A stretch of 45,552 nucleotides of DNA from Bacteroidota bacterium (GTDB lineage Bacteria; Bacteroidota; Rhodothermia; Rhodothermales; Bin80): the NCBI GenBank assembly GCA_028873925.1, contig JAPPNA010000041.1, forward strand, positions 1-45,552, read 5' to 3'. Below the pieces are notes generated by a model. That model saw only the letters and a program-made list of their open reading frames with translations, had not been told where the DNA came from and ran no database searches. Shown here in pieces: positions 1 to 26,272 of the stretch; position 1 is the stretch's first letter, and every line of letters begins with the position of its first letter. The translations under genes were made by a program, and so were the position numbers.

Positions 1-167
1 CAATCCTTAGCGCAGATTCCGGGAAATTCCGAATCGTCATGAATAATCCGGGATGACAGCTCCCGGTGATAGCTGCAGTTGCGTCGGCTTTGCGATGGGG
101 CTGTGTTATCAGCGCGGTTTTCAGATCTGTGACCGGGCGGCTCCCGGATGCAGGGTGGCTACCGACC
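1..167. other. Left-edge non-coding stretch
   Basis: I see no credible gene between the window edge and the stop codon (TAG, minus strand) of the first PSD1-type gene. There is no clear hairpin followed by a T run that would serve as a terminator for the minus-strand operon ending here. Confidence 0.5.
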
Positions 168-4030: not shown

Positions 4031-4034
4031 CGGC

Positions 4035-7000: not shown

Positions 7001-7163
7001 CGGGGCCGTGACAGGCGTAGCAGCGGTCTGACAGTATGGGGCGGATATGAAAATTGTAATCCACGACCTCGGGCAGCATATCACCCGAGTTGCCTGCACA
7101 TCCCGCCATTGCCAGCAGGACTGCTCCGGCCAGCAGCCGTTCAATGCTAAACCAACAGGTCAT
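4035..7163 (-). CDS. PSCyt1-DUF1549-LamG-DUF1553 lipoprotein (middle paralog)
   Basis: A 1042-aa predicted lipoprotein with lipobox Cys22 (LLAMAGC). Domains in order: PSCyt1 with CYACH at residues 48-52 (RPILSDRCYACHGPD), DUF1549 (about 150-365) with the second CxxCH in CARCHDHKYDP, a LamG/concanavalin-like jelly-roll (about 460-660, with FDGESGVNFAG and MNRWSHVTVTYDGSSRADG), and DUF1553 from about 740 (DNPLTARVAVNRYWQRYFG). The LamG insertion suggests carbohydrate or glycan binding. Two CxxCH sites suggest c-type haem attachment. Neither is shown here beyond the motifs. The ATG lies inside the end of the upstream DUF1501 gene (17-bp overlap). It is a clear paralog of the 1056-aa gene upstream and of the shorter 816-aa gene downstream. 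Confidence 0.9.
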   Translation of the reverse strand: MTCWFSIERLLAGAVLLAMAGCAGNSGDMLPEVVDYNFHIRPILSDRCYACHGPDSNARQAELRLDEEHYAKHTPLTGGGYAVVPGSVRRSVLFQRITASDLEVRMPPAESNLALTEQEIALIRRWLIQGAEWKPHWSFIPVGNPIVPEVQDSAWPRNEVDRFVLAHLEQEGLAPSRPADRPTILRRVTLDLTGLPPTLDEIDRFLADTTALAYERTVDRLLDSPAFGEHMASDWLDIARYADTHGYQNDRERYSWPWRDWVVEAYNTNLPFDAFGTWQLAGDLLPAATREQILATSFNRNHRQTNEGGSIEEEFRTEYVADRTNTLGTAFLGLTLECARCHDHKYDPITQADYYGLFNFFNDIDESGQTSHFTDSEPVPALSLPDPEDERTIKQLNVRMAASERALDTIRESARTRFEAWRPGQRQLPHEPERGLVLACDFNAMASDRLPCATGPAGRLVFRPALAAGRERNGLTFDGESGVNFAGVGHFRRTDPFSISLWIRPAEATGVLIHRTQAALDAGSRGYELALQNGHLIAQLAHMWPENAVRIRTLNPVPMNRWSHVTVTYDGSSRADGLELYVNGRRAPVRIVRDGLTRNITYENLETHLALAYRFRDTGFRDGIIDQLLIHNRTLAGFEIARLAEQPQTDDGLFEWYLQRHDTAWNEAQNMLRSLRQERNALQSSLPAIMVMRDMATPRDANILMRGQYDVLGPEVAPSAPAAILAFSDSLPPDRYGLAQWLFDADNPLTARVAVNRYWQRYFGTGIVSTPEDFGRQGALPSHPDLLDHLASTFITSGWDVKAVQRLIVTSATYRQSSSGTAGSLQRDPDNRLLARGPRLRLTAEMIRDQALAAGGLLDRTMGGPPVKPYQPEGLWQEKAGIRYVQGTGSDLYRRTLYSYFKRTSPPPALLTFDMPSRSHSVMRRQRTATPQQALVLLNAPQYVEAARHIAQRMLSEPELAQQIILGFRLTTGREPASSELRILQQLYQDQLHFFANDPPAARALLTTGASPVSADHDPIAWAAQTMVAKTLLSFDESLTRY

Positions 7164-8616
7164 TGACTACATGGCCGTGCACATCGGTGAGGCGATACCT
7201 GCGGCCCTGATGTCGGTAGGTGAGGCGCTCATGGTCAATCCCCAACAGATGCAGGATCGTAGCTTGAAGATCGTGCACATGGACCGGGTTTTCCGCAATG
7301 TTGTAGCCCAGCTCATCGGTGGCCCCGTAGGTGAGGCCCGGCTTTATGCCGCCGCCCGCCATCCAAATGGTAAAGCAGCGCGGATGGTGGTCGCGGCCGT
7401 AATTGGTTTCAGTGAGGGTTCCCTGGGAGTAGTTGGTGCGCCCGAATTCGCCACCCCAGATGACCAGCGTGTCCTCCAGCAGTCCCCGCCGCTTGAGATC
7501 GATAACCAGGGCGGCCGATGCCTTGTCGGTGTCTTTGCACTGCAGTTCAATGTCGTGTGGCAGGTCGGTGTGCTGATCCCAGCCCATGTGGTAGAGCTGG
7601 ATGAATCGGACATCACGCTCGGCAAGTCGCCGGGCGAGCAGGCAATTGGCCGCATAGGTGCCGGGCGTGCGCGCGTCCTGGCCGTACAGCTCAAAGGTGG
7701 ATTCCGGTTCGTCTGACAGATCGGTAACCTCGGGTACGGAGGTCTGCATCCGATAGGCCATTTCGTATTGCGCAATACGGGACTGGATTTCCGGGTGTCC
7801 GCTGCTTTCAAAGTGAAGCCGGTTGAGATGGGCGAGGTGCTCCAGCATCCGGTGCCGGTTTGAGGTATGCAGGCCCGGGGGATCGTTGAGAAACAGTACC
7901 GGATCTCCGCCGGTGCGAAACTGCACGCCTTGGTGCAGGGCGGCCAGAAATCCGCTCCCCCACAGGCGGGAATAGATGGGCTGGGGCCGCTGGAGTCCGC
8001 GAGACAGCAGTACGCAGAATGTGGGCAGATTCTCATTGGAGCTGCCCAGGCCGTAGCTGAGCCAGGCTCCGATACTGGGTCGTCCGGGCTGTTGTGAGCC
8101 GGTCTGGAAAAACGTAATGGCAGGATCGTGGTTGATCGCCTGGGTATACATGGATCGGACCACACAGATTTCGTCGGCAATTGCTCCGGTATGCGGCAGG
8201 AGGGTGCTGATCCAGGCCCCGCTGCCTCCCCACTGGGCAAACGGATAGATGGATGGCGCGAGCGGGAATGCCTTCTGGTACGCCGTCATGCCGGTCAGCC
8301 GCTGGCCCATGCGCACCGATTCGGGCAGGTCTTCCCCCCTACGGCGCGTAAGGTCGGGCTTATAATCGAACAGCTCCAGCTGTGAGGGTCCGCCGCTCTG
8401 AAACAGGTAGATGATACGCCGCGCTTTGGGAGCGATATGGGGGGCGGCCAGTATGCCCCGGAATGCCGATCCGGCCGCTTGTTGACGATCTGACTGCGCG
8501 CATCCCAGAAGCGACGCAAGGGCGGCACCGCCGATTCCGACACTCAATTTGGAAAAGAAGTGCCGGCGGTTCATCTCACATCCCAGGGAATACATCTGGT
8601 CTTCCATTGCGGTCAC
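7147..8616 (-). CDS. DUF1501 Tat-exported protein, probable Tat lipoprotein
   Basis: A 489-aa DUF1501 protein, paralog of the one at 2618-4030. The N-terminus has NRRHFFSKLSVGIGGAALAS followed by LLGC, so a twin-arginine signal that ends in a lipobox is plausible. Conserved blocks include KARRIIYLFQSGGPSQ, NHDPAITFFQTGSQ, WGGEFGRTNYSQG and YGRDHHPRCFTIWMAGGG. The longest frame uses GTG at 8616, overlapping the upstream stop as GTGA. In-frame ATG codons at 8607 and just before NRRHFF are alternatives, and the last gives the most usual Tat n-region. The gene sits between two LamG-bearing partner genes. The function is unknown beyond the family fold, and the position in the operon argues for joint action. 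Confidence 0.9.
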   Translation of the reverse strand: MTAMEDQMYSLGCEMNRRHFFSKLSVGIGGAALASLLGCAQSDRQQAAGSAFRGILAAPHIAPKARRIIYLFQSGGPSQLELFDYKPDLTRRRGEDLPESVRMGQRLTGMTAYQKAFPLAPSIYPFAQWGGSGAWISTLLPHTGAIADEICVVRSMYTQAINHDPAITFFQTGSQQPGRPSIGAWLSYGLGSSNENLPTFCVLLSRGLQRPQPIYSRLWGSGFLAALHQGVQFRTGGDPVLFLNDPPGLHTSNRHRMLEHLAHLNRLHFESSGHPEIQSRIAQYEMAYRMQTSVPEVTDLSDEPESTFELYGQDARTPGTYAANCLLARRLAERDVRFIQLYHMGWDQHTDLPHDIELQCKDTDKASAALVIDLKRRGLLEDTLVIWGGEFGRTNYSQGTLTETNYGRDHHPRCFTIWMAGGGIKPGLTYGATDELGYNIAENPVHVHDLQATILHLLGIDHERLTYRHQGRRYRLTDVHGHVVNDLLV

Positions 8617-11600
8617 CGGTGTTGTGCTTCGTCAAGATTCATAACGGTGCTGATCACCATAGTCAGCGCAGCCAGTTCCGTCGGATTGCGGTCCTGTGGT
8701 GTGGCAGATTTACCGGCGGTCAGCAGCTGCGCAGCCCGCTCGGGAAATTCACCAAAGTGCCGCTGCTGCTCTTCCAACAGGTCTTGGAGGATTTTCAATT
8801 CGGCTCGTTTCGCATCGCGCGAGGTCAGCAGGCGGAATCCTGCACGGATGCGTGCATCATCATCATTATGGACTTCCGACAGCCTGAAGGCCATAACGCG
8901 AGCGGCCTCAACATACTGGGGATCATTCATCAGCACCAGAGACTGGAGCGGCGTGGCGGTCGGCTCCCGTTCCACCGTGCAGACGGTTCGATCCGGAGCA
9001 TCAAATATTAGCATGGCCGGCGGAGGAATAGTACGCTTCCAATAGGTATAGACGCTGCGCCGGTATACGTTGGGACCGGGGCGGTACCGGTTTTCCCCAA
9101 CCTGGTTGGCAAGGGCTTTCCAAAGGCCTGCGGGCTGATAGGGCCTGACGGGCTCGCCGTACATGGTACGATCCAGCAGTCCGCTGGCGGCCAGCGCATT
9201 GTCGCGCACCATCTCTGCGGACAGGCGTTTTCGCGGGCCGCGGGCCAGCAGCATGTTGCCTGGATCGCGCAGCTGCAGTTCTTCCGAGACGGCACTGGAC
9301 TGGCGATAGGTGGCTGAGGTTACGATTTCCTTGAGGAGTGCCTTGGTGTTCCAGTCGAGCTCTATGTACCGGATGGCCAGATAGTCCAGCAGTGCCGGAT
9401 GCGAGGGCAGGGCCCCCTGGTTGCCGAAGTCTTCAGGCGTGTGCACCAGGCCCACACTAAACAGCATCTGCCAATACCGGTTGGCGGCTACGCGCGCGGT
9501 CAGCGGATTGCTCTCATGGGTAAGCCATCTTGCCAGGCCGAGCCGGTTTCGCGGCAGATCATCCGGAAAGGACAGAATTGCCGCCGGAGTATCCGGTCCT
9601 ACCGAATCCACCGGAGCATCGTATGCGCCGCGATCCAGTACGAAGGTGGGTCGGGGTGTTTCCATCTCCTCCATGATCATGACAAACGGAATTGTCCTGA
9701 CCTGCTGTCTGACGCTGTCCAATTGGGCCGTGAGCGTCCGGTAGCGGTCATCCTGGTGCTCCCGGTAGAATTGCCTTGCGGGCGGATGTGCGGCCCCGGC
9801 CAGATGAGCGACTTCGAGATCCGTAAGCGCCCGCGTGTATATCCGCAGCTCATCCAAACGGCCGCCAGCCAGTCCGGTCAGATCTCCCCGCGTCTTCTTG
9901 CGCGGCGTAAAGTTGCCCGCCAGCAGTCCGTTGCCGTTGAGGATGCTCATTCGGCTCAATTCATCCATTTCCGCCCGAACCGGAACCTTTTGGCCGTTGA
10001 TGTACAGTGTGACCCCGTCGGCACGGCTGGATCCGTCATAGGTGGCGGCGACATGCGTCCAGGATTCAGGCGGGATACGGACAGTGGAGGTAACTACGAT
10101 TCGGTGCTCATTGTCCTGAACAAGTCGGAGTCGGAGGTAGCCATCCTGTGTTCGGGTCAAGTCATATCCGCGCCGATGCTGTTCTCCGATCCGCTTGGAC
10201 AGCAGAGCCGCATCTTTATCCTGGGTGCGTGCCCACACCCATCCGCTCAAAGTGAAGCGTGAGTACCATTCAAAATCGGCTTCTTCCCCGAGATTGATGA
10301 AGTTCACGCCATCAAATGCCATGGACTGCCCCATAAATCCTGGCTCCAGAACAGGAGATGGCAGGTCTGTTTCCAATCCCGTGTTCGCAAATGCGGGCAG
10401 CCCCGTTCTGGCGGGCGTTCTCAGGTTGGTGAGCGAATCCAGCGGCAGGTGGACAAACAGTCCCTGCTGGAGTGCCGCGGTCAGGTCAGGCTGCCAGTCG
10501 GCCGGCGGCTCGGGGACGGACCATTGATCGGCCACGGTTTCCAGAGAATCCAGCGTTCTGATGGTATTCTCCAAGGATTCTTCATAGGCCGGATCCTCCA
10601 TACGCATTGAGGGCACCGGCGACAGATCGAAATAACTGATCGGGGCCTTCTCGTCAATGCCGTTGAAGAAGGCAAACATGGAGTAGTAGTCTCGCTGGAG
10701 AACGGGATCATACTTGTGGTCATGACAGCGGGCACATTCCATGGTCAGTCCAAGGAACGCGGTAGCTGTCGTGTTGGTGCGGTCGGCCACATACTCGGTG
10801 ATATATTCGGACGGGACTACGCCTCCTTCCTGCGTTATGGCGTGATTCCGATTGAATCCTGTCGCCAGTTTCTGATCATAGGTGGCCTCCGGCAGCAGAT
10901 CGCCCGCAAGCTGCCATGTGATAAATTCGTCGTAGGGCAGATTGTTGTTGTAGGCTCGTACGACCCAGTCGCGCCATGGCCACATGGTGCGCGGCCGGTC
11001 ATCCTGGTAGCCGTGCGTGTCTGCGTACCGCGCGATATCCAGCCACATACTGGCCATCCGCTCTCCGTACGCAGGACTGGCCAGCAGCCGATCCACGATC
11101 CGTTCATAGGCCTGGGGGTCTGAATCTGCGACAAACGCATCAATGGCAGCCGGAGTTGGAGGCAGGCCGGTCAGATCAAAGGACACGCGGCGCAGGAGCC
11201 TGGCTTTGGCGGCTTCGGACGAAAACGAGAGATTCTCCGATTCCAGCCGGGCCAGAACAAAGTGATCGATGGGATTGCGTACCTGGTCTGCGCGTCTGAC
11301 TTCCGGGAGCGAGGGCTGGGCAGGCGCGGTGAACGCCCAGTGCGGCTTCCATTCGGCCCCCTGGTCGATCCATGCGCGGATCAGGGCGATTTCGTGACGG
11401 GTAAGTGTCAGCTTGCTGTCCGGGGGTGGCATGACCCAGTTCGGGTCTTCCGATGAGATATGGTCTACCAGCACGCTGGCTGCCGCGTTGTACGGCGTGA
11501 TGATCTGCAGGGTGGAATCGTCCCGACTGTAGCCGTACGCCCCTTCGCGGGTATCCAGTCTCAGGTCCGCCTGCCGGGCCCGTTCATCGGGCCCGTGGCA

Positions 11601-11783
11601 CTGGTAGCACCGGTCGGACAGAATCGGCTTTACATGCCAGTTATAGTCTACCACCTCCGGCAGGCTCACATCCGCGGCGGAGGGCCCGCAACCCGTCAAT
11701 ATGAGGATTCCCAGCGCGGCCAAGGGCCAAGGTGCTTGTTGCATAACGCGCAAATTCCGTCTCAACCGGTGATAACGGTTCAA
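8613..11783 (-). CDS. PSCyt1-DUF1549-LamG-DUF1553 lipoprotein (first gene of the operon)
   Basis: A 1056-aa predicted lipoprotein and the promoter-proximal gene of the five-gene operon. The N-terminus is basic, then hydrophobic, with lipobox ILTGC (Cys32). PSCyt1 carries CYQCH at 59-63, DUF1549 spans about 160-380 with CARCHDHKYDP, LamG about 465-680 (FDGVNFINLGEEADFEW, ESWTHVAATYDGSSRADG), and DUF1553 about 745-1000 (SNPLTARVAANRYWQMLFS). It ends in GTGA overlap with the next gene. The three PSCyt1 proteins share order and motifs, so the operon grew by tandem duplication, with loss or non-acquisition of LamG in the last copy. Haem attachment and glycan binding are predictions from motif and domain type only. 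Confidence 0.9.
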   Translation of the reverse strand: MNRYHRLRRNLRVMQQAPWPLAALGILILTGCGPSAADVSLPEVVDYNWHVKPILSDRCYQCHGPDERARQADLRLDTREGAYGYSRDDSTLQIITPYNAAASVLVDHISSEDPNWVMPPPDSKLTLTRHEIALIRAWIDQGAEWKPHWAFTAPAQPSLPEVRRADQVRNPIDHFVLARLESENLSFSSEAAKARLLRRVSFDLTGLPPTPAAIDAFVADSDPQAYERIVDRLLASPAYGERMASMWLDIARYADTHGYQDDRPRTMWPWRDWVVRAYNNNLPYDEFITWQLAGDLLPEATYDQKLATGFNRNHAITQEGGVVPSEYITEYVADRTNTTATAFLGLTMECARCHDHKYDPVLQRDYYSMFAFFNGIDEKAPISYFDLSPVPSMRMEDPAYEESLENTIRTLDSLETVADQWSVPEPPADWQPDLTAALQQGLFVHLPLDSLTNLRTPARTGLPAFANTGLETDLPSPVLEPGFMGQSMAFDGVNFINLGEEADFEWYSRFTLSGWVWARTQDKDAALLSKRIGEQHRRGYDLTRTQDGYLRLRLVQDNEHRIVVTSTVRIPPESWTHVAATYDGSSRADGVTLYINGQKVPVRAEMDELSRMSILNGNGLLAGNFTPRKKTRGDLTGLAGGRLDELRIYTRALTDLEVAHLAGAAHPPARQFYREHQDDRYRTLTAQLDSVRQQVRTIPFVMIMEEMETPRPTFVLDRGAYDAPVDSVGPDTPAAILSFPDDLPRNRLGLARWLTHESNPLTARVAANRYWQMLFSVGLVHTPEDFGNQGALPSHPALLDYLAIRYIELDWNTKALLKEIVTSATYRQSSAVSEELQLRDPGNMLLARGPRKRLSAEMVRDNALAASGLLDRTMYGEPVRPYQPAGLWKALANQVGENRYRPGPNVYRRSVYTYWKRTIPPPAMLIFDAPDRTVCTVEREPTATPLQSLVLMNDPQYVEAARVMAFRLSEVHNDDDARIRAGFRLLTSRDAKRAELKILQDLLEEQQRHFGEFPERAAQLLTAGKSATPQDRNPTELAALTMVISTVMNLDEAQHR

Positions 11784-12028
11784 CTGAGCAATTTAGAGAT
11801 TTACCCCAAAGGCTTCAACCAAGCCCCAACGCACGCGGCTGGGACAACCATTGAGCGACGACCTTCCAGGCCGCCACGCGGGCTCCTGACAGGGGCCAGC
11901 GCACGGCGTTATGAGTCCCGCGCCGCCCGGTTGCGGAATCTATGCAGCATTACGGCTGGTCGGTTCCCGTATCCGGGAAGGCTTCTGTATCAAATGCTCA
12001 CCGCAGTTGACAGCGGCAAACAGCCGGG
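11784..12028. other. Intergenic region upstream of the PSCyt1/DUF1501 operon
   Basis: This lies between the first gene of the minus-strand operon and the left border of restriction-modification repeat A. It must contain the operon promoter if there is one here, but no convincing -35/-10 pair was seen. No coding remnant was recognised. The non-coding stretch continues to 12260 inside the repeat. Confidence 0.4.
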
Positions 12029-12260
12029 TGCGCACCATTGGATGATGTCTGTGCTGGAGTTGATCGGATCGGCCGTTTCCTGCTCAGTCAGAATTGTACT
12101 CAATGGTGTGTTGGGTGAAGCACTTGAGCCGTATCGGGGAGCATCCGGGCACTGGCGACAGCAGGTCTTACCCGGTGCGTTACTTGTACAGGTGCGTGCA
12201 TCAGGCCGCCAGGTTGACTATGGGGCCCTGGAAGGTCAGGCTGCTCCGATTGTCGGGCAC

Positions 12261-15200
12261 CTACCGGATAGGCCATCCGCCGTGTGCACTGATCGCAGGG
12301 TCAATCTCTGTCATGATCCGATTGGTTTCGGCGAGTGCAGCGCAGAGCCGCTGGTAATGCTGAATATCGTCAAAGGACAGTGTTCTGTTCTTTCTGGATT
12401 TGAGCCACAGCTGCGCAGGCCTGTATCCTGCGATCACGCAATCCCAGGTTTCCGGCGTAATGCCTTCAAAGTACTGTTGGCCGTTGATCCAGACCCTGTT
12501 CACGGAGGTTCCGAGCAGGGTGGGCTCGTGCCTGGGAACATGCGCCACCAGGTTGCTGCCGGTACAGGGGAACCGTGGCAATTCAGAACCGACAGCTTCC
12601 ATCAGGTGCAGCGAGACAAGGCGGTTGCCAAGACTGACCATCCTCCAAAACAACTCGGCACTGGAGGTGACTGGAATCCGCGGGAAGTCCATTTTCAGCA
12701 GATCTGCGTATCGCCTGCGATATTCGGGGCTGTGCAGGATGGCGTAGATGTAGTGAAATGCATCCGCGGGACCGATCTCCCCGGAATTCTCCTGTTCAAG
12801 AAACGTGAGGCCTGTTTTTTCGCTTAAGGCGGCCATAAATTCACGGTGCAAATTCACCTCCTGATCATTCCTGTCCCACGGCACGGCTACATGCAGCGGC
12901 ATGACGTATGCGCCCCCCTTGCTGCTGAAGGTAGCACGGAAGTCCACCAGTTCGTCCGCAGCAAACACATGGTTGAAGACACCCTCCGCCACCTGACGCA
13001 CACTGATCAGGGCGCGATTGGGCCGGTTTGCCATACTGCGCATAATGGCTGGCCTGGGCATACAATGGAATCCCCGGGTCCGGCCCGTATAGTAGGTGTA
13101 TCGTGTGTCAAACGGACGATACAAGATAGGGGTCACATGCTGATCAGGATCAGGGTGATCGGTGACATCCTTTTGGGCCAGATGCACTTTCCAATCCCGG
13201 ACATCTTTGCGCAATCGGTACTTGCGGCGGGCCTCTTCCACATCAAGCCGGGTAAAATCCCTGACGATGCGTCGGATGTCCTTTGCCGTGAACCGGATGG
13301 TGAAGCTGTCGCGGGCAGTTACGATGCCTGCAGAGTACTGCCTGAAGATATCGGTGAGACGCCAGCCCTGTTCGTATTCATGCCATCTGCTTTCGGACTG
13401 CGGCACAAACAGATAAAACGGGGGCTGCGGAGTGATTTGCTGCCACTGGGTCTGCTGAAAGGTCGCATTTGACAGCCAGGAGTACTTGTGATGGCGGGAT
13501 CCCCAAAGGTCACAGTGATAGAGTTTTGCTGTAGGGTGTCGTCTGTCGGGGTATTTGATGAACAACCCGACAGCAATACCCTGCTGAATATCAAAAACGT
13601 TGTCATCCCTGCTTCCGTCGGGCGAGCGTTCCTTTTTTCGGGCATTGCCGTGCAGATCCAGCACATAGATCTCATCGAACGTCTCCAGGAGGCTGTGGCG
13701 CATGCCTCTGAATGTGGGGTTATCCAGATACGCGTGGTTGGTCACAAACCCAATGATCCCCTGTCCGGTACGTTCAATGCGCCACTGGGCAAAGCGGATG
13801 AACTTTACATAGTCGTCATTGAGCCACTTAGGATTGCGCTCGTTCAGTTTCTCCCCATTGACATGAAAGTAAGATCCCGTAACGGAGAGGCCATCTTTGC
13901 CTCTGAGCAGGTTCCGGATCCATTCTCCCTTATTGGCCGAATGGCCTGAATAGGGGGGATTGCCAATGACTACCATAACCGGCGTATCCATCTTGACCCG
14001 GTTGGCACTGGCCGCCTCCTTAGCAATTTCATGCGCAAAAAACAGCGGCCCATGATCGGACGACTCGCGGGCAGGTTCCAAGGTGTTGGTCAGGAACATG
14101 TTCAGCCGTTCGCCGGCTGACAGGCGGTCCGATTGGTCTCCATCACCAAGCTCAAGGGCAATCTTGAGGTGGCCGATGACATACGGCGCAATAAGCAGTT
14201 CAAAGCCGTGCAATCGCGGCAGGAGGTGCCGCTGCACGTATTCAGGCCAGGCACCGCCCAATCCCCGATTGTGTACGGTTTGGCGAATCAGCAGGATTGC
14301 TTCCCGCAGGAAAGTACCCGTACCCGCGGCGGGGTCCAGGATAACCACCTCATTATCGTCATCAATCTGGATTGCCAATCCGTCGGGAAGATCAAAATGC
14401 TGTTGCAGGATCTGATCTACGCATCGGACGATATAAGTGACCACCGGTCGAGGCGTATAGTAGACACCGCGTTGTTCCCGCAATTCAGGATCATAGGCTG
14501 CCAGGAAATCCTCATAGAAGTGGATGATCGGATCCTGTTGTTCGGTGCGGCTGCCAGAGTTATGTAAAATTTTGGCCATGTCAGCTCGCTCCAGCAACAA
14601 AGCGATATCGTCCACAATCCAGGAGACACGCGGATCGACTTTCGGGCCGACTGTTGTGTACATCACCTCCTGCAGGAACGGAGTCGTGGGTATGAATGTG
14701 GCTGTTTGCCTTGTAAAGGGCTGGCCGTTGTCCTGCAGGCACCGCGCAGCGAAAAGCCCGTAGGTTGCAGTCTGCGCCTGCATGTCAGCGAATGCCTGCC
14801 GGGATAGATTTGCTATGAGAACACGCCGATAGCTTTCAAGAAGCTGCCGCATGGCATCGGACTGATTCCCGTTACCGAGGATACGCTCCACAGCCTCTTT
14901 GAGCAGTCTGGCCTTCATGGCCAGTTGCCGGGCCAACTCGTATGAACTGTCAACCACCGGCACGGACTGTGCGAGGAACTGAATCAGCAGCCGGGCTAGG
15001 GGTCGCTTTGCAGCGGGATCAATTTCAATATCGCCAACGGCTGTCATGCCGCCAAGGCGCACATCCTTTTGGAGTTGTCCGCGCACATACCACTTGAAGT
15101 TCAGGGGAGTCGCGAGCATCAGATTGGGCAGTCCATCCCTGTACCGCTTCAGTTGTGATGTGTGGAATGCCTTCTCAAGGTCTGAGCCCAGGGTCTTGCA

Positions 15201-15458
15201 TTCAATATGCCCGATAGTAACCTTTGACTGCACGATAGCGAGATCCGGAGCACCGGCCGCGACACGGGCAGGTTCGTTGACGATCGTAACGGATCCGACG
15301 GAGTTGGTGGCCACCGCGTCAAGCAACTCCATGAGCGCACGGCGATAGCTGTGCTCGGTGGCCTGTCCGGTTGCATAGACCTCGGCAATGGACCGGCAGT
15401 AGACCTTAATCGCGTGACCAATCTGCTTGCTTGAGAGGAATTTCTCCATATCCGTCAT
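12261..15458 (-). CDS. Type IIG/ISP-like restriction-modification fusion enzyme, copy A
   Basis: A single 1065-aa polypeptide that appears to combine DNA cleavage, adenine methylation and target recognition. An N-terminal PD-(D/E)xK-type nuclease is suggested by Asp72 and the ECK triad at residues 86-88. A gamma-type N6-adenine methyltransferase follows, with motif X-like GVYYTPRPVV (331-340), motif I DPAAGTGTF (375-383) and catalytic motif IV NPPY (500-503). The remaining roughly 500 residues match the expected position of the specificity region (type ISP C-terminal style). No helicase motifs lie between nuclease and methyltransferase, so it is shorter than classical type ISP enzymes such as LlaGI and closer to type IIG architecture. 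The frame starts at ATG 15458, with ATG 15449 as an alternative. No separate specificity subunit or methylase lies next to it. Copy B encodes the same protein. Confidence 0.85.
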   Translation of the reverse strand: MTDMEKFLSSKQIGHAIKVYCRSIAEVYATGQATEHSYRRALMELLDAVATNSVGSVTIVNEPARVAAGAPDLAIVQSKVTIGHIECKTLGSDLEKAFHTSQLKRYRDGLPNLMLATPLNFKWYVRGQLQKDVRLGGMTAVGDIEIDPAAKRPLARLLIQFLAQSVPVVDSSYELARQLAMKARLLKEAVERILGNGNQSDAMRQLLESYRRVLIANLSRQAFADMQAQTATYGLFAARCLQDNGQPFTRQTATFIPTTPFLQEVMYTTVGPKVDPRVSWIVDDIALLLERADMAKILHNSGSRTEQQDPIIHFYEDFLAAYDPELREQRGVYYTPRPVVTYIVRCVDQILQQHFDLPDGLAIQIDDDNEVVILDPAAGTGTFLREAILLIRQTVHNRGLGGAWPEYVQRHLLPRLHGFELLIAPYVIGHLKIALELGDGDQSDRLSAGERLNMFLTNTLEPARESSDHGPLFFAHEIAKEAASANRVKMDTPVMVVIGNPPYSGHSANKGEWIRNLLRGKDGLSVTGSYFHVNGEKLNERNPKWLNDDYVKFIRFAQWRIERTGQGIIGFVTNHAYLDNPTFRGMRHSLLETFDEIYVLDLHGNARKKERSPDGSRDDNVFDIQQGIAVGLFIKYPDRRHPTAKLYHCDLWGSRHHKYSWLSNATFQQTQWQQITPQPPFYLFVPQSESRWHEYEQGWRLTDIFRQYSAGIVTARDSFTIRFTAKDIRRIVRDFTRLDVEEARRKYRLRKDVRDWKVHLAQKDVTDHPDPDQHVTPILYRPFDTRYTYYTGRTRGFHCMPRPAIMRSMANRPNRALISVRQVAEGVFNHVFAADELVDFRATFSSKGGAYVMPLHVAVPWDRNDQEVNLHREFMAALSEKTGLTFLEQENSGEIGPADAFHYIYAILHSPEYRRRYADLLKMDFPRIPVTSSAELFWRMVSLGNRLVSLHLMEAVGSELPRFPCTGSNLVAHVPRHEPTLLGTSVNRVWINGQQYFEGITPETWDCVIAGYRPAQLWLKSRKNRTLSFDDIQHYQRLCAALAETNRIMTEIDPAISAHGGWPIR

Positions 15459-15570
15459 TCAGGTCAGCCAGCCACATCCAATATACTTAGGAAGCGCCAA
15501 TAGGCCCGAAGGAATCGATGCCAGCACCCGGGACCCCAACACTTCAAAATCCCTATGTCTGTGCGATCCG

Positions 15571-15606
15571 GGGAGGCAGGCCTCCCATCCTCAACGAGCA
15601 GGATGG
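15571..15606. promoter_or_regulatory. Two adjacent inverted repeats upstream of the RM gene (copy A)
   Basis: About 115-150 bp upstream of the RM start codon there are two perfect 7-bp stems. GGGAGGC and GCCTCCC (15571-15577, 15580-15586) are separated by two bases. CCATCCT and AGGATGG (15585-15591, 15600-15606) are separated by eight bases. They share two bases, so they cannot both form fully as hairpins. Adjacent palindromes upstream of a lone restriction-modification gene could be an operator or an RNA structure. This is inference, as no C-protein gene is visible. Confidence 0.35.
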
Positions 15607-15675
15607 CCCGGCACCCATGGGTGGACACGGCTGTAGGATGCAGATCCCACCTGAAGGCAATCATCGTGCGCCATT

Positions 15676-16594
15676 CGGGCGGTGCCCCGGATTCAGTTGG
15701 TTAACAGGTGAGGCGACCTGCGGGGCAGCTCGGGCCCTCGGGCCGCGATGCCATCTGCGGGAACCCTGCGACAGCCTCACCTTGAACGCCCCGGTGCTGG
15801 ACTGAAGGTAGTAGAGCCCATCGGGGGAGGCCCGCCTTTCATCTGTGACGGAGTGTGCGAATAACACCCGTTCGACCGATCGGTCGGCTGGTACCGAAGT
15901 TCGATGGCCCGCCGGTCAGCATGGATAAGATGGAGCGGGGCATTGTCGCAGAAGCTGCCGGGCAGTGAGTGCAATGGACACCGATGTTCTTGTCCGGTTT
16001 TCCGCAAATGATGATCGGTATAAGCTGCTAGGGGGCTGCCGGACTCGCTCTCAGCCGGACAACCGGACTATGTGTGCCGCCGTGTCGGACTTAACTGGGT
16101 CCTGAAGCGCTCTGAGGGGTTTTCAAGAGGTCGGATCGCGAACATTCCTGAAGATCCTGCCAGCTCTGAGGAACTGGTAATAGAGAGTGCCGCGGATGCC
16201 TTGTTTGCGACAGAGTGCTTTTGAACGGATGCCATTAGCATTCGGATTTAGTGGGGGATGATCGCCGCACTGCAGAGCACTGCTGTGCATATCTGTGACA
16301 ATTCCGCGTAATTGGAGCTTTGAAACGATGTTACAGGGACTGGAAGCGGGCATCCGATCACCGGGCTTCTTGGCACTCTTACAGTTCACAGTGACAGCCT
16401 GAGCGGCCGCCGTATCGCTGCGGGAACTGATGGATTGACCCCTGCTCAACCTGAAATGAATCCGTGTTTGCATGTGCGCGTGAAGTATCGGCAATTCCCT
16501 GAACACCCGTAAATCGTTCGCCGGAGGGGTAATGGGCAACGGGTGCGGTATTCGGCCACTCGGGATGGCCGGTGGTTGCGAGGTAGGCTACCAA
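15676..16594. repeat. Dispersed diverged repeat X1 (with vapBC remnant)
   Basis: This spacer between the two RM copies is paralogous to 25086-26269. Shared landmarks in order: ATTCAGTTGGTTAACAGGTG, the block around 15764-15826, ATCTGTGACGGAG, the vapBC remnant, ACATCTGTGACAAT-like sequence, and the end block GGGATGGCCGGTGGTTGCGA. X1 lacks about 360 bp present in the other copy, with the junction at a CGCCTTT heptamer (15833-15839). It runs directly into the left border of RM copy B. Confidence 0.8.
15912..16224 (+). pseudogene. Degenerate vapBC toxin-antitoxin module (copy in X1)
   Basis: The remnant begins with the end of an AbrB-type antitoxin reading frame (DKMERGIVAEAAGQ then TGA at 15966-15968). 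A PIN-domain toxin start follows directly (MDTDVLVRF from 15974, the VapC signature with the first acidic residue). Further on, in a different frame, NWVLKRSEGFSRGRIANI at 16093-16146 matches the usual VapC helix block (WVLRSxYGFSRxxIAxxL), followed by EDPASSEELVIESAADALF and a stop at 16222. The N-terminal DNA-binding half of the antitoxin is absent, lost in the 360-bp deletion described for this repeat. Frameshifts make the toxin non-functional. The identification rests on motif resemblance. Confidence 0.7.
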
Positions 16595-16595
16595 G
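16225..16595. other. Non-coding remainder of X1
   Basis: No gene is recognised here. The sequence is alignable by eye with 25998-26269, with conserved blocks GAACACCCGTAAATCGTTCG and GGGATGGCCGGTGGTTGCGA, but it is not coding in a shared frame. It probably represents the decayed downstream part of the original vapBC-bearing segment. Confidence 0.5.
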
Positions 16596-16827
16596 TGCGC
16601 GCCATTGGGCGAGGTCTATGCCGGAGTTGATTGGATCGGCCGTTTCCTGCTCAGGCAGAATTGTACTCAATGGTGTGTTGGGTGAAGCACTTGAGTCGTA
16701 TCGGGGAGCATCCGGGCATTATCAATAGCAGGTCTTACCCGGTGCGTTACTTGTACAGGTGCGTGCATCAGGCCGCCAGGTTGACTATGGGGCCCTGGAA
16801 GGTCAGGCTGCTCCGATTGTCGGGCAC

Positions 16828-19800
16828 CTACCGGATAGGCCATCCGCCGTGTGCACTGATCGCAGGGTCAATCTCTGTCATGATCCGATTGGTTTCGGCG
16901 AGTGCAGCGCAGAGCCGCTGGTAATGCTGAATATCGTCAAAGGACAGTGTTCTGTTCTTTCTGGATTTGAGCCACAGCTGCGCAGGCCTGTATCCTGCGA
17001 TCACGCAATCCCAGGTTTCCGGCGTAATGCCTTCAAAGTACTGTTGGCCGTTGATCCAGACCCTGTTCACGGAGGTTCCGAGCAGGGTGGGCTCGTGCCT
17101 GGGAACATGCGCCACCAGGTTGCTGCCGGTACAGGGGAACCGTGGCAATTCAGAACCGACAGCTTCCATCAGGTGCAGCGAGACAAGGCGGTTGCCAAGA
17201 CTGACCATCCTCCAAAACAACTCGGCACTGGAGGTGACTGGAATCCGCGGGAAGTCCATTTTCAGCAGATCTGCGTATCGCCTGCGATATTCGGGGCTGT
17301 GCAGGATGGCGTAGATGTAGTGAAATGCATCCGCGGGACCGATCTCCCCGGAATTCTCCTGTTCAAGAAACGTGAGGCCTGTTTTTTCGCTTAAGGCGGC
17401 CATAAATTCACGGTGCAAATTCACCTCCTGATCATTCCTGTCCCACGGCACGGCTACATGCAGCGGCATGACGTATGCGCCCCCCTTGCTGCTGAAGGTA
17501 GCACGGAAGTCCACCAGTTCGTCCGCAGCAAACACATGGTTGAAGACACCCTCCGCCACCTGACGCACACTGATCAGGGCGCGATTGGGCCGGTTTGCCA
17601 TACTGCGCATAATGGCTGGCCTGGGCATACAATGGAATCCCCGGGTCCGGCCCGTATAGTAGGTGTATCGTGTGTCAAACGGACGATACAAGATAGGGGT
17701 CACATGCTGATCAGGATCAGGGTGATCGGTGACATCCTTTTGGGCCAGATGCACTTTCCAATCCCGGACATCTTTGCGCAATCGGTACTTGCGGCGGGCC
17801 TCTTCCACATCAAGCCGGGTAAAATCCCTGACGATGCGTCGGATGTCCTTTGCCGTGAACCGGATGGTGAAGCTGTCGCGGGCAGTTACGATGCCTGCAG
17901 AGTACTGCCTGAAGATATCGGTGAGACGCCAGCCCTGTTCGTATTCATGCCATCTGCTTTCGGACTGCGGCACAAACAGATAAAACGGGGGCTGCGGAGT
18001 GATTTGCTGCCACTGGGTCTGCTGAAAGGTCGCATTTGACAGCCAGGAGTACTTGTGATGGCGGGATCCCCAAAGGTCACAGTGATAGAGTTTTGCTGTA
18101 GGGTGTCGTCTGTCGGGGTATTTGATGAACAACCCGACAGCAATACCCTGCTGAATATCAAAAACGTTGTCATCCCTGCTTCCGTCGGGCGAGCGTTCCT
18201 TTTTTCGGGCATTGCCGTGCAGATCCAGCACATAGATCTCATCGAACGTCTCCAGGAGGCTGTGGCGCATGCCTCTGAATGTGGGGTTATCCAGATACGC
18301 GTGGTTGGTCACAAACCCAATGATCCCCTGTCCGGTACGTTCAATGCGCCACTGGGCAAAGCGGATGAACTTTACATAGTCGTCATTGAGCCACTTAGGA
18401 TTGCGCTCGTTCAGTTTCTCCCCATTGACATGAAAGTAAGATCCCGTAACGGAGAGGCCATCTTTGCCTCTGAGCAGGTTCCGGATCCATTCTCCCTTAT
18501 TGGCCGAATGGCCTGAATAGGGGGGATTGCCAATGACTACCATAACCGGCGTATCCATCTTGACCCGGTTGGCACTGGCCGCCTCCTTAGCAATTTCATG
18601 CGCAAAAAACAGCGGCCCATGATCGGACGACTCGCGGGCAGGTTCCAAGGTGTTGGTCAGGAACATGTTCAGCCGTTCGCCGGCTGACAGGCGGTCCGAT
18701 TGGTCTCCATCACCAAGCTCAAGGGCAATCTTGAGGTGGCCGATGACATACGGCGCAATAAGCAGTTCAAAGCCGTGCAATCGCGGCAGGAGGTGCCGCT
18801 GCACGTATTCAGGCCAGGCACCGCCCAATCCCCGATTGTGTACGGTTTGGCGAATCAGCAGGATTGCTTCCCGCAGGAAAGTACCCGTACCCGCGGCGGG
18901 GTCCAGGATAACCACCTCATTATCGTCATCAATCTGGATTGCCAATCCGTCGGGAAGATCAAAATGCTGTTGCAGGATCTGATCTACGCATCGGACGATA
19001 TAAGTGACCACCGGTCGAGGCGTATAGTAGACACCGCGTTGTTCCCGCAATTCAGGATCATAGGCTGCCAGGAAATCCTCATAGAAGTGGATGATCGGAT
19101 CCTGTTGTTCGGTGCGGCTGCCAGAGTTATGTAAAATTTTGGCCATGTCAGCTCGCTCCAGCAACAAAGCGATATCGTCCACAATCCAGGAGACACGCGG
19201 ATCGACTTTCGGGCCGACTGTTGTGTACATCACCTCCTGCAGGAACGGAGTCGTGGGTATGAATGTGGCTGTTTGCCTTGTAAAGGGCTGGCCGTTGTCC
19301 TGCAGGCACCGCGCAGCGAAAAGCCCGTAGGTTGCAGTCTGCGCCTGCATGTCAGCGAATGCCTGCCGGGATAGATTTGCTATGAGAACACGCCGATAGC
19401 TTTCAAGAAGCTGCCGCATGGCATCGGACTGATTCCCGTTACCGAGGATACGCTCCACAGCCTCTTTGAGCAGTCTGGCCTTCATGGCCAGTTGCCGGGC
19501 CAACTCGTATGAACTGTCAACCACCGGCACGGACTGTGCGAGGAACTGAATCAGCAGCCGGGCTAGGGGTCGCTTTGCAGCGGGATCAATTTCAATATCG
19601 CCAACGGCTGTCATGCCGCCAAGGCGCACATCCTTTTGGAGTTGTCCGCGCACATACCACTTGAAGTTCAGGGGAGTCGCGAGCATCAGATTGGGCAGTC
19701 CATCCCTGTACCGCTTCAGTTGTGATGTGTGGAATGCCTTCTCAAGGTCTGAGCCCAGGGTCTTGCATTCAATATGCCCGATAGTAACCTTTGACTGCAC

Positions 19801-20025
19801 GATAGCGAGATCCGGAGCACCGGCCGCGACACGGGCAGGTTCGTTGACGATCGTAACGGATCCGACGGAGTTGGTGGCCACCGCGTCAAGCAACTCCATG
19901 AGCGCACGGCGATAGCTGTGCTCGGTGGCCTGTCCGGTTGCATAGACCTCGGCAATGGACCGGCAGTAGACCTTAATCGCGTGACCAATCTGCTTGCTTG
20001 AGAGGAATTTCTCCATATCCGTCAT
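16828..20025 (-). CDS. Type IIG/ISP-like restriction-modification fusion enzyme, copy B
   Basis: This encodes the same 1065-aa protein as the gene at 12261-15458, with the same nuclease motif (Asp72, ECK 86-88), motif I (375-383), NPPY (500-503) and long C-terminal recognition region. No amino-acid difference was found between the copies, and alternative frames of the two regions also agree, so the DNA is identical or nearly so. Redundant enzymes of identical specificity bring no new target. Persistence of both without a single visible change points to very recent duplication or ongoing gene conversion. The upstream region carries the same paired inverted repeats at about 20138-20173. Assembly duplication has to be considered, but the different outer flanks and diverged shoulders argue for a real second locus. 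Confidence 0.85.
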   Translation of the reverse strand: MTDMEKFLSSKQIGHAIKVYCRSIAEVYATGQATEHSYRRALMELLDAVATNSVGSVTIVNEPARVAAGAPDLAIVQSKVTIGHIECKTLGSDLEKAFHTSQLKRYRDGLPNLMLATPLNFKWYVRGQLQKDVRLGGMTAVGDIEIDPAAKRPLARLLIQFLAQSVPVVDSSYELARQLAMKARLLKEAVERILGNGNQSDAMRQLLESYRRVLIANLSRQAFADMQAQTATYGLFAARCLQDNGQPFTRQTATFIPTTPFLQEVMYTTVGPKVDPRVSWIVDDIALLLERADMAKILHNSGSRTEQQDPIIHFYEDFLAAYDPELREQRGVYYTPRPVVTYIVRCVDQILQQHFDLPDGLAIQIDDDNEVVILDPAAGTGTFLREAILLIRQTVHNRGLGGAWPEYVQRHLLPRLHGFELLIAPYVIGHLKIALELGDGDQSDRLSAGERLNMFLTNTLEPARESSDHGPLFFAHEIAKEAASANRVKMDTPVMVVIGNPPYSGHSANKGEWIRNLLRGKDGLSVTGSYFHVNGEKLNERNPKWLNDDYVKFIRFAQWRIERTGQGIIGFVTNHAYLDNPTFRGMRHSLLETFDEIYVLDLHGNARKKERSPDGSRDDNVFDIQQGIAVGLFIKYPDRRHPTAKLYHCDLWGSRHHKYSWLSNATFQQTQWQQITPQPPFYLFVPQSESRWHEYEQGWRLTDIFRQYSAGIVTARDSFTIRFTAKDIRRIVRDFTRLDVEEARRKYRLRKDVRDWKVHLAQKDVTDHPDPDQHVTPILYRPFDTRYTYYTGRTRGFHCMPRPAIMRSMANRPNRALISVRQVAEGVFNHVFAADELVDFRATFSSKGGAYVMPLHVAVPWDRNDQEVNLHREFMAALSEKTGLTFLEQENSGEIGPADAFHYIYAILHSPEYRRRYADLLKMDFPRIPVTSSAELFWRMVSLGNRLVSLHLMEAVGSELPRFPCTGSNLVAHVPRHEPTLLGTSVNRVWINGQQYFEGITPETWDCVIAGYRPAQLWLKSRKNRTLSFDDIQHYQRLCAALAETNRIMTEIDPAISAHGGWPIR

Positions 20026-20137
20026 TCAGGTCAGCCAGCCACATCCAATATACTTAGGAAGCGCCAATAGGCCCGAAGGAATCGATGCCAGCACCCGGGA
20101 CCCCAACACTTCAAAATCCCTATGTCTGTGCGATCCG

Positions 20138-20173
20138 GGGAGGCAGGCCTCCCATCCTCAACGAGCAGGATGG
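20138..20173. promoter_or_regulatory. Two adjacent inverted repeats upstream of the RM gene (copy B)
   Basis: The same pair of 7-bp stems as at 15571-15606, inside the identical part of the duplication. Identity here carries no independent evidence of selection, because the whole segment is identical. Confidence 0.35.
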
Positions 20174-20262
20174 CCCGGCACCCATGGGTGGACACGGCTG
20201 TCGGATTCAGATCCCACCTGAAGGCAACCATCGTGCGCACCCGTTCGGGCATTGTTACATTG

Positions 20263-20637
20263 TTAGTTGGAATTGGGTGACTTTGACCGGCTCTGGGACT
20301 TCCCATTATACGGTGTTGGGACACATTCTTGCAAGGCTGCCTGAAGATTTGGCAGGTGTTTCTTGCCTGGCAGCTCTTTGAAGCCCTCTTCGGCGTTGAG
20401 GATCGCCATCACGATCCATCGTTGCCGCTGACTTGAATTCCACCAGCGTTTGATCCGGTTCAGACGGCGACCGATGGTGCTGTTCAGGTTCTCAATGATG
20501 TTGGTGGTCCGCAGGCTTTTTCTCAATTCCTCATCTACGCCGAGCTTGTGCAGCGTCAGCGTTTCCTCCATGCCCTCTGCCAGACTGTTGGCCGCTTCTT
20601 CGTTGTAGGTAGCCCTGCCCCGTAGTTCATAAATCTG
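20263..20637 (-). pseudogene. IS256/Mutator-family transposase, C-terminal fragment
   Basis: The fragment reads, from an in-frame TAG at about 20640, ...YNEEAANSLAEGMEETLTL, then HKLGVDEELRKSLRTTNIIE, RRLNRIKRWWNSSQRQRW and LNAEEGFKELPGKKHLPNLQ. This is the characteristic C-terminal end of IS256-type transposases (S/A-EGLEETLTLHRLG, LxxTNxIES, RWxxxALLxxE). Only about 120 of the usual roughly 400 residues remain, so the DDE catalytic core is gone. The 5' end is cut at the junction with the DruA-like fragment. Downstream, GGACTTCCCATTATACGG at about 20297 resembles a terminal inverted repeat of the family. Confidence 0.8.
20294..20330. repeat. Probable IS256-type terminal inverted repeat (single end)
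   Basis: This sequence lies at the 3' end of the transposase fragment and contains CCGTATAATGGGAAGTC on the minus strand, a type of end common in the IS256 family. No matching opposite end was found in the window, consistent with a truncated element. Confidence 0.4.
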
Positions 20638-20641
20638 CTAG

Positions 20642-20673
20642 ACTTTGCCAATCCTGTCGGTTACTTAACCGAC
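20642..20673. repeat. 32-bp direct repeat with an 18-bp palindrome (left copy)
   Basis: The sequence is ACTTTGCCAATCCT followed by the palindrome GTCGGTTACTTAACCGAC (20656-20673), an 8-bp inverted repeat with CT at the centre. It abuts the ATG of the DruA-like fragment. A second copy lies at 21150-21181 in the same orientation but with AG at the centre. Confidence 0.75.
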
Positions 20674-21150
20674 ATGGACGGACAGCCACAGATACTGATA
20701 ACGCCGTGGGCCGAGTTGCCGCGGTTGGTCGCGTTGCTCAAGGAGCAGGACGACCTGGGCCGTAATGCGACCGCTCGGCGGGTGTGTGAGGCGTTCGGAT
20801 TTGTAGATGCGCGTGGGCATCCGCGGCAGGCGGGCTGCCTGAAAGCCCTGCGTACATTGGATGCGGAGAAACATATTAAACTGTCGGCTGGCCAAGCGGA
20901 ACCCCGACACTAAAGCCGCATTTGTTTGGATGCCCCTGTACCCGAGGCCAAAGATGTCCCTGACACGGCCCGTGAAGTGCAGGATCTCAAGATCACCCGG
21001 GTCAGGAGCCTTCAGGATTGGGCCATTTGGAACACGTTCATGGATCAGGAGCATCCGCGGGGCACGGCCATCTTTGCGGGTGCTCAGGTCAAATACCTCA
21101 GCCACAGTGCCCATGGCTATCTCTGCACCGTAGTTTATAGACCTACTTAA
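20674..21150 (+). pseudogene. DruA/DUF4338-type transposase, 5' fragment with in-frame stop
   Basis: The reading frame starts at ATG 20674. It contains GRNATARRVCEAFGFVDARG then GCLKALRTLDAEKHIKL, resembling the N-terminal domain of transposases with a DUF4338 (DruA-like) region (ARRLCExFGWxxxxGxxxxxSCxxALxxL). After a TAA at 20911-20913 the same frame continues with DAPVPEAKDVPDT, LKITRVRSLQDWAIWNTFM, EHPRGTAIFAGAQVKYLSHS and HGYLCTVVY, the DUF4338 core, then ends at 21150 against the right copy of the flanking repeat. The DDE catalytic part is absent. This is therefore a nonsense-mutated, 3'-truncated remnant. Resemblance to Druantia DruA is through this shared domain only and does not indicate a defence system. 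Confidence 0.65.
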
Positions 21151-21181
21151 CTTTGCCAATCCTGTCGGTTAAGTAACCGAC
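21150..21181. repeat. 32-bp direct repeat with an 18-bp palindrome (right copy)
   Basis: ACTTTGCCAATCCT is followed by GTCGGTTAAGTAACCGAC (21164-21181). The outer 14 bases are in direct orientation relative to the left copy, while the two central bases of the palindrome are AG instead of CT, so the palindromic core reads as if inverted. Confidence 0.75.
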
Positions 21182-21194
21182 CGGAGTGAAGGTG

Positions 21195-21494
21195 TCAAGC
21201 ACCTTTTGTTTCTAAAGGGCAGTCGTAGCCCTTCGCCTTCAGGCACCGGGCAATGTCTTCGGCACATATCCGAACAGCTTCGCTCCCCAACGGCAGCAGC
21301 GGCTCCCCGCGCAAAATCGCGGCTACGCGGTCGGTCAGGTCGTTCCATTCCGACTCCGGGACCTTGAAGTCTCGACCCAGATTGAGGATGGTCTTCTGGG
21401 TCGGCTTGCCGCGCACCCGGCGGCATTCCAGCAGGCCGTATCCAATACGCACTTCGCCGTTTTTGAGCGTGTGCGCGCGTTTCCGAATGTACAC
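21195..21494 (-). pseudogene. IS1634-family transposase, N-terminal fragment
   Basis: The frame starts at GTG 21494 and runs 99 codons: MYIRKRAHTLKNGEVRIGYG, LLECRRVRGKPTQKTILNLG, then VAAILRGEPLLPL. This matches the N-terminal opening of IS1634-type transposases (MyiRxxxxxxxGkxYxyxxLvExxRvxGKvRqrvlxnLG). The catalytic domain is missing, with the frame ending at a TGA next to the right copy of the palindromic repeat. It is a third, unrelated transposase remnant in about 1.2 kb. Confidence 0.6.
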
Positions 21495-25085: not shown

Positions 25086-26269
25086 CGGGCGGTGCTCCGA
25101 ATTCAGTTGGTTAACAGGTGCGGGGACCCTGCGACAGCCTCACCTTGAACGCCCCGGTGCTGGACTGAAGGTAGTAGAGTCCATCGGGGATGGCCCGCCT
25201 TTCGGCCTGAGACCGGAAGTCATGATGGTTGACCAGGTTCACGGCATTCCCCAACAGGTATCCGCATTGCGGAAGCACCCGATCAGCCCTTGTTCCGGGC
25301 ACCCATGCGGATCAAAAGTTGGTGCTGCTCGCGTTTGCGGGTCGGCAATGAGTAAGTTTACGATCACCCGCGCTGGCTTGCGGATACGATCCGCAGCTGC
25401 GGGAAGACAGCCGGGTACAATATGTTAGGTGACGAAAATTCTGCTGCCTTGGGCAGGGTGCAGCCATACTGGAATCCGCGGTTTCCGGGACAGGACAAAC
25501 CGCTCGGCCCAAGCCCGCCCGCGAGGCATTGGGCCTAAAGGCCGGTGATCGGATTCGCCTTTAATCTGTGACGGAGCGTGCGAATAATTCCTGTTCGACC
25601 GATCAGTCGGCTGTTACTGGAGTACGATGGCCCGGCGGTCAGCGAAGATGGAGCGGAGCATTGCCGCAGTAGCTGCCAGCCAATGATTGCAATGGACACC
25701 AACGTTCTCGTCCGATTTCCCGCAATTGATGATCAGAGCAAGCTGCTAAGGGTTGCCGGACTCGCTCTCAGTCGGACAACCAGACTATGTGTGCCGACGG
25801 GTCGGACATGCCTGGGTCCTGCAGCGCTCTTAGGGGTTTTCAAGAGGTCGGATCGCGGACATTCTTGAATACCATTCTAGTTCTGACATCTGGCAGGGGG
25901 AAACGCCGGGGATGTCATGAACGCGGCATAGCGCCGGGCGCGGCAGATTGTTCGGTAATGGTGGCTGCTGCAGCTGCGCGGTCCGGGGTAATGCTAGCGT
26001 ACATCTGTGACAATACTGCGCAATAGGAGCTTTGTAATAGTTACAGGGACCGGGAGCGAGTATCCGGTCACTGGGCATCTTAACACCTGTGATTGGGACA
26101 CCGTCAACCATAACTCAACCTGCCATGAATCCACGCCTACCAATGTGCGTGAGGTATCGGCAACTCCCTGAACACCCGTAAATCGTTCGCCGGCGGGCTG
26201 ATCGGCGTGCAGGCATGTGCAGTATTCGGCCGCTCGGGATGGCCGGTGGTTGCGAGGCAGGCTGCCAGG
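25086..26269. repeat. Dispersed diverged repeat X2 (fuller copy, with vapBC remnant)
   Basis: This is the paralog of X1 (15676-16594) and contains about 360 bp that X1 lacks, between two CGCCTTT heptamers (25196-25202 and 25556-25562). It is not associated with an RM copy. It ends four bases before the stop codon of ilvE. Conserved blocks shared with X1 include GAACACCCGTAAATCGTTCG and the end block GGGATGGCCGGTGGTTGCGA. Outside the vapBC remnant (25204-25495 and 26031-26269) no gene was recognised. Confidence 0.8.
25496..26030 (+). pseudogene. Degenerate vapBC toxin-antitoxin module (copy in X2)
   Basis: The antitoxin remnant shows the AbrB/SpoVT DNA-binding signature PKPAREALGLKAGDRIRL (25508-25561), then a stop. 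Its C-terminal end follows in another frame (KMERSIAAVAASQ, TGA at 25684-25686). The toxin ATG at 25683 overlaps that stop as ATGA, the normal vapBC arrangement, and reads MIAMDTNVLVRF, the PIN-domain opening with conserved Asp. Further on, in another frame, AWVLQRS, an in-frame TAG, then GFSRGRIADIL matches the VapC middle. The module is therefore inactivated by at least one stop and several frameshifts. It is diverged from the X1 copy, and the two retain different pieces. Confidence 0.75.
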
Positions 26270-26272
26270 TAG

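Follow-up and report, generated by a model that had tools for sequence, protein, structure and literature searches.

The window, the whole 45,552-nucleotide stretch of DNA that was analysed, carries, as assembled, two direct copies of a gene for a single-chain restriction-modification (R-M) enzyme, and the best reading of this locus, to which we give a probability of about 0.6, is a tandem duplication whose core was recently homogenised by gene conversion. A base-by-base comparison of the assembled sequence yielded 0 differences over the 3475 bp of the two cores at an offset of 4567 bp (Table 1), whereas the homologous flanks, here called shoulders, carry 11% mismatches on the left and 8% on the right. 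This abrupt identity step between core and homologous flanks, the signature looked for in gene conversion, is present at both ends. Outside both shoulders homology stops abruptly and the copies are unrelated, and gapped BLAST stretches the homology merely to 12028-15680 and 16595-20250. An earlier note on this DNA had described a directly duplicated R-M gene with these coordinates, offset and shoulder lengths and with no core differences, all of which is reproduced in the assembled sequence, each copy being a complete open reading frame of 1065 aa.

The core pair is the sole exact repeat of at least 56 bp within the window, which excludes a chance origin of the 3475-bp match. Each core consists of the R-M gene with 101 bp of non-coding DNA downstream and 176 bp upstream, and the identity steps at both ends fall in non-coding DNA, where these 101 and 176 perfect bp lie beside shoulders of 11% and 8% divergence, respectively. 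As the core sequence has no further occurrence elsewhere in the genome, a 185-contig assembly in which the window lies on contig C37, the donor of the putative homogenisation is a local one. Rfam and tRNA scans of the window returned no matches, and Tandem Repeats Finder reported no arrays in it.

Table 1. Features of the R-M gene pair and its surroundings, in positions of the window.
Feature	Coordinates	Strand	Basis or remark
Copy A, single-chain restriction-methyltransferase gene, 1065 aa	12261..15458	-	PD-EXK P71/D72/E86/K88; DPAAGTG, NPPY; Type_ISP_C
Copy B, identical 1065-aa gene	16828..20025	-	complete ORF, same as copy A
Core of copy A, perfectly identical	12160..15634		base-by-base comparison
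Core of copy B, perfectly identical	16727..20201		base-by-base comparison
Left shoulder, copy A	12029..12159		14 mismatches/131 bp vs 16596-16726
Left shoulder, copy B	16596..16726		partner of 12029-12159
Right shoulder, copy A	15635..15671		3 mismatches/37 bp vs 20202-20238
Right shoulder, copy B	20202..20238		partner of 15635-15671
Spacer X1 between the copies	15672..16595		opens with short dispersed repeat (about 15-20 genome places); 73-95% to 25086-26270
Second X1-like stretch, without R-M gene	25086..26270		between T9SS-tagged subtilase gene and ilvE-type gene
IS256-family transposase remnant (C-terminal part), just past copy B	20263..20571	-	

Each copy is predicted to encode an R-M enzyme of Type IIG layout, with a PD-EXK nuclease, an N6-adenine methylase and a C-terminal Type_ISP_C specificity domain all found in one chain. 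The PADLOC Type IIG models (REase_MTase_IIG) match the 1065-aa protein with E = 6e-275, and Pfam places N6_Mtase in it (E = 6e-9) and Type_ISP_C at residues 703-1050 (E = 9e-79), the specificity domain being fused at the C terminus. The four PD-EXK residues and the NPPY motif listed in Table 1 are invariant in the query and 53 homologues, and the fixed positions of the methylase motif DPAxGTG are each 93-100% conserved. Because the nuclease and methylase motif residues are held in this way, the enzyme of both copies looks active, and because the specificity domains of both copies are identical, the two should share one specificity. A domain search found neither a helicase nor an ISP_coupler domain in the 1065-aa protein; assignment to Type ISP proper (LlaGI-like), which has an SF2 helicase and a coupler, is therefore ruled out.

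On the preferred reading, a solitary Type IIG-like R-M gene would have been duplicated directly long ago, with the copies 4567 bp apart, and recent homologous recombination between them, either as gene conversion or as loss and regain via unequal crossing-over, would have homogenised the pair. The homogenisation would have overwritten the gene plus 100-180 bp on either side, and the outermost parts of the old duplication would have survived as the diverged shoulders. Both copies would yield the same predicted enzyme, expected to methylate host adenine in its target and to cut unmodified foreign DNA, so that the duplication would bring dosage, not new specificity. Since multiplication and mobility are known for R-M genes (PMC3874152), the locus fits a known process as a fresh instance and nothing in it needs a new mechanism. 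If real, it would offer a clean example from nature of a duplicated single-chain R-M gene evolving in concert, in a two-copy state that should be unstable, since recombination between the copies removes 4567 bp, and that might persist through dosage selection or post-segregational killing.

In order to read the perfect core correctly, the behaviour of the assembly has to be considered, as a k=55 metagenome assembler would tend to turn any direct repeat of moderate similarity into a perfect core between diverged shoulders. In the sample of contigs on which the overlap and gap analysis rests, contig ends overlap by exactly 55 bp (C113/C123/C59, C31/C54, C103/C54, C25/C179 and C59/C124), and C135 holds a run of exactly 10 N; from these marks we infer a SPAdes-type short-read graph with k=55. 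Repeats of 55 bp are enough to break this assembly, and a graph of this kind cannot take reads across 3475 bp of repeat, so the long exact repeat within C37 must stem from loop resolution, and both printed cores are probably one graph edge, walked twice round a loop core-X1-core. Such resolution gives the same printed result for truly identical copies and for copies about 1-2% apart, so the identity is not to be taken at face value, and both the lack of differences and the count of two are due in part to the assembly. The earlier note had named an assembly artefact as the outcome that would undo its case, and in view of the graph marks such an artefact keeps some probability, the exact 3475-bp identity standing for the assembled letters only. 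Its proposal of gene conversion inside an older duplication is still the best reading, given the identity step and a mosaic gene pair in a related genome (G011, below), but its premises of a perfect core and of two copies are weakened by the k=55 graph. As a separate observation, a dispersed repeat of 52-57 bp (TTCAATCCTTGGCGCAGATTCCGGGAAATTCCGAATCGTCATGAATAATCCGGG) forms the start of C37 (window 1-55) and recurs at one end or the other of about a dozen further contigs; the assembly breaks at this repeat, which resembles the terminus of a small mobile or intergenic element.

The best placed of the alternatives, though on balance an unlikely one, is that there are two real copies with cores about 98-99.5% alike that bubble collapse fused into one edge, the perfect core being a consensus and the shoulders having kept their differences because they hold no common 55-mer. 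The exact 55-bp contig-end overlaps and the 10-N gap are typical of SPAdes at k=55, and metaSPAdes has been described as collapsing most strain-level differences through aggressive bulge removal, metagenome assemblers also being weak at repeats when fragments are <1 kb (PMC8021871). The same assembly collapsed another R-M gene pair (C59/C113/C123). In two other genomes (G005 and G008) R-M genes are broken at contig ends, and the 55-bp overlap looked for at these breaks was not found, so no collapse is shown there.

The amount of divergence that could be masked was estimated with a toy model of bubble removal (k=55, 3475-bp core) in which bubbles up to 165 bp, or 300 bp in a second run, were merged, these limits being assumed values. 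With 165-bp bubbles and 0.5% divergence, 54% of trials, or about half, ended in a complete merger of the core, as did 21% at 1%, 4% at 1.5% and none at 3%; with 300-bp bubbles the corresponding values were 56%, 31%, 17% and 0.8%. On this model divergence of roughly 1-2% could lie hidden in the core, values of 1.5-2% less often than about 1%, whereas the 8-11% seen in the shoulders could not. Because masking of that size cannot bridge 8-11% to 0, a sharp real identity step between core and shoulders, and with it a step in age, is likely, the perfection of the core aside. Bubble collapse can practically not mask divergence of at least 3%, and even where it acted a smaller step from the shoulders would remain; its support from the toy model also depends on the assumed bubble limits. 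The masking limit weighs most at the non-coding 101 and 176 bp of the core, which lie beside the non-coding shoulders.

Two further cases in the same genome resemble the pattern in the window. Contig C135 (L173) contains a 1755-bp perfect direct repeat (2547-4301 and 11888-13642) around the 10-N gap, flanked on one side by about 350 bp of shoulder at 92-98% identity and on the other by a shoulder at 62-82%, and because of this look-alike in the same assembly the core and shoulder pattern may partly reflect assembly. Contig C59 (L172; 3569 bp) holds the collapsed body of an LlaGI-like Type ISP gene with helicase, ISP_coupler and methylase, and joins by 55-bp overlaps two different 3' specificity ends, C113 (L171) and C123 (L170), whose proteins are 83% identical. 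These cases speak either for frequent homogenisation of R-M and repeat genes here or for an assembler that readily prints such a pattern. The fork at C59, to which C124 (L181) is also joined, would represent two paralogues or two strains with one common core. The C135 repeat sits within an array of about 291-bp repeats; in addition, positions 44953-45552 of the window, together with C37 45553-46111, form the start of an array of ~290-bp repeats, 75-92% alike, which also occurs on C2, C9, C25, C62, C135, C163, C170 and C179 in large repetitive surface-protein-like genes.

The number of copies could also be wrong, which we consider distinctly improbable: most cells might carry one copy, or there might be >2, in which case the core-X1-core loop would come from a rearrangement in a minority of cells, from a circular form or from mixed strains, and the assembler would have chosen the linear contig. 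Such a loop has one simplest linear reading at any multiplicity, the contig alone cannot give the copy number, and tandem repeats expand and contract by recombination. However, the four junctions (left flank to A, A to X1, X1 to B and B to right flank) were each assembled as a separate sequence carrying its own shoulder allele, and X1, in which no plasmid-like gene is seen, is similar to a stretch of chromosome at a distance of 9 kb. X1 and that second stretch (Table 1) are related intergenic sequences of about 0.9-1.2 kb on the same contig, 73-95% identical.

Very improbable, finally, is a recent insertion of the second copy beside already similar sequences, the shoulders then being older, unrelated repeats: the right shoulder of copy A does lead into a short dispersed repeat found at about 15-20 genome sites, and R-M units move by themselves, in some cases duplicating about 100 bp of target (review, PMC3874152), but nothing else in the genome matches the left shoulder of 131 bp and no target-duplication-like direct repeats flank either copy. 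The specific form of this idea, insertion with a ~100-bp target duplication, was rejected, as self-BLAST shows no direct repeat flanking either copy. A phage origin is unsupported, with two weak partial phage matches only.

Several other repeats were seen around the pair. The IS256 remnant just past copy B opens a segment (20263-21240) that continues with two 64-bp repeats about 500 bp apart (20610-20673 and 21118-21181), whose palindromic GTCGGTTA..TAACCGAC ends resemble those of small elements. On the other side, window 168-11783 contains adjacent PSCyt1/PSCyt2/PSD1 and DUF1501 gene units, 64-71% alike in DNA, an older tandem duplication beside the R-M pair whose spacing is likewise ~4.5 kb, coincidence or not.

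Evidence from other genomes shows that this bacterial family does contain tandem copies of patchy identity, since two tandem pairs of related genes are present in G011, a same-family genome that is better assembled (4 contigs for 4.8 Mb, probably from long reads). The G011 C1 pair (C1:787517/791784) shows 95.9% identity across 4078 bp; it includes an exact tract of 1188 bp, ranges over 89-99% in other parts and falls to ~70% in its shoulders. Its protein is about 33% identical to the R-M protein of the window and belongs to a different subfamily. The similarity of the C3 pair (C3:2078356/2081853) is concentrated at the 3' end that encodes the C terminus, where about 300 bp match at 95%, against about 40-75% in the remainder. 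Elsewhere in G011 (L160, C3:1718000-1737999, at about 7960-13815), a relative of the R-M gene is interrupted at residue 509, with ~2.7 kb of other sequence between its two parts. The closest relatives in public genomes are about 35-45% identical, mostly in metagenome-assembled genomes, including Poribacteria, and plasmid-borne relatives exist, all at <60% identity. A second full copy was found within the fetched stretch at 0 of 80 related loci from public genomes, so tandem pairing is not a general trait of this gene family, and the left-flank sequence of the locus has no match among 15 other genomes of the bacterial family.

A wider proposal, which we put forward as rather unlikely, is that solitary R-M genes in this bacterial family are kept in tandem or multiple copies, their nuclease-methylase core being repeatedly homogenised while specificity domains or flanks diverge, so that the array, driven by recombination, would serve as a reservoir of specificities; other stages would then be represented by the C59 core with its two specificity ends and by the G011 pairs.

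Among known systems, the G011 pairs share with the window the direct tandem arrangement and the same bacterial family, and the exact tract of the C1 pair likewise ends abruptly at unrelated or diverged flanks, but the G011 copies still differ from each other, even towards the specificity region. The solved structures most similar to the 1065-aa protein are 7LO5/7LVV, with LlaBIII and LlaGI next, the similarity lying in the methylase and specificity part. The Type ISP enzymes LlaGI and LlaBIII have the methylase and Type_ISP_C in common with the 1065-aa protein (phmmer E = 2e-44 to LlaBIII), which is without their helicase and coupler domains, the LlaBIII chain measuring 1578 aa. The alignment to 7LO5/7LVV covers only the methylase and specificity part, residues 306-952; these Type IIG/IIL enzymes likewise combine a PD-EXK nuclease, an N6-adenine methylase and a C-terminal specificity domain in one chain of about 1000-1100 aa.
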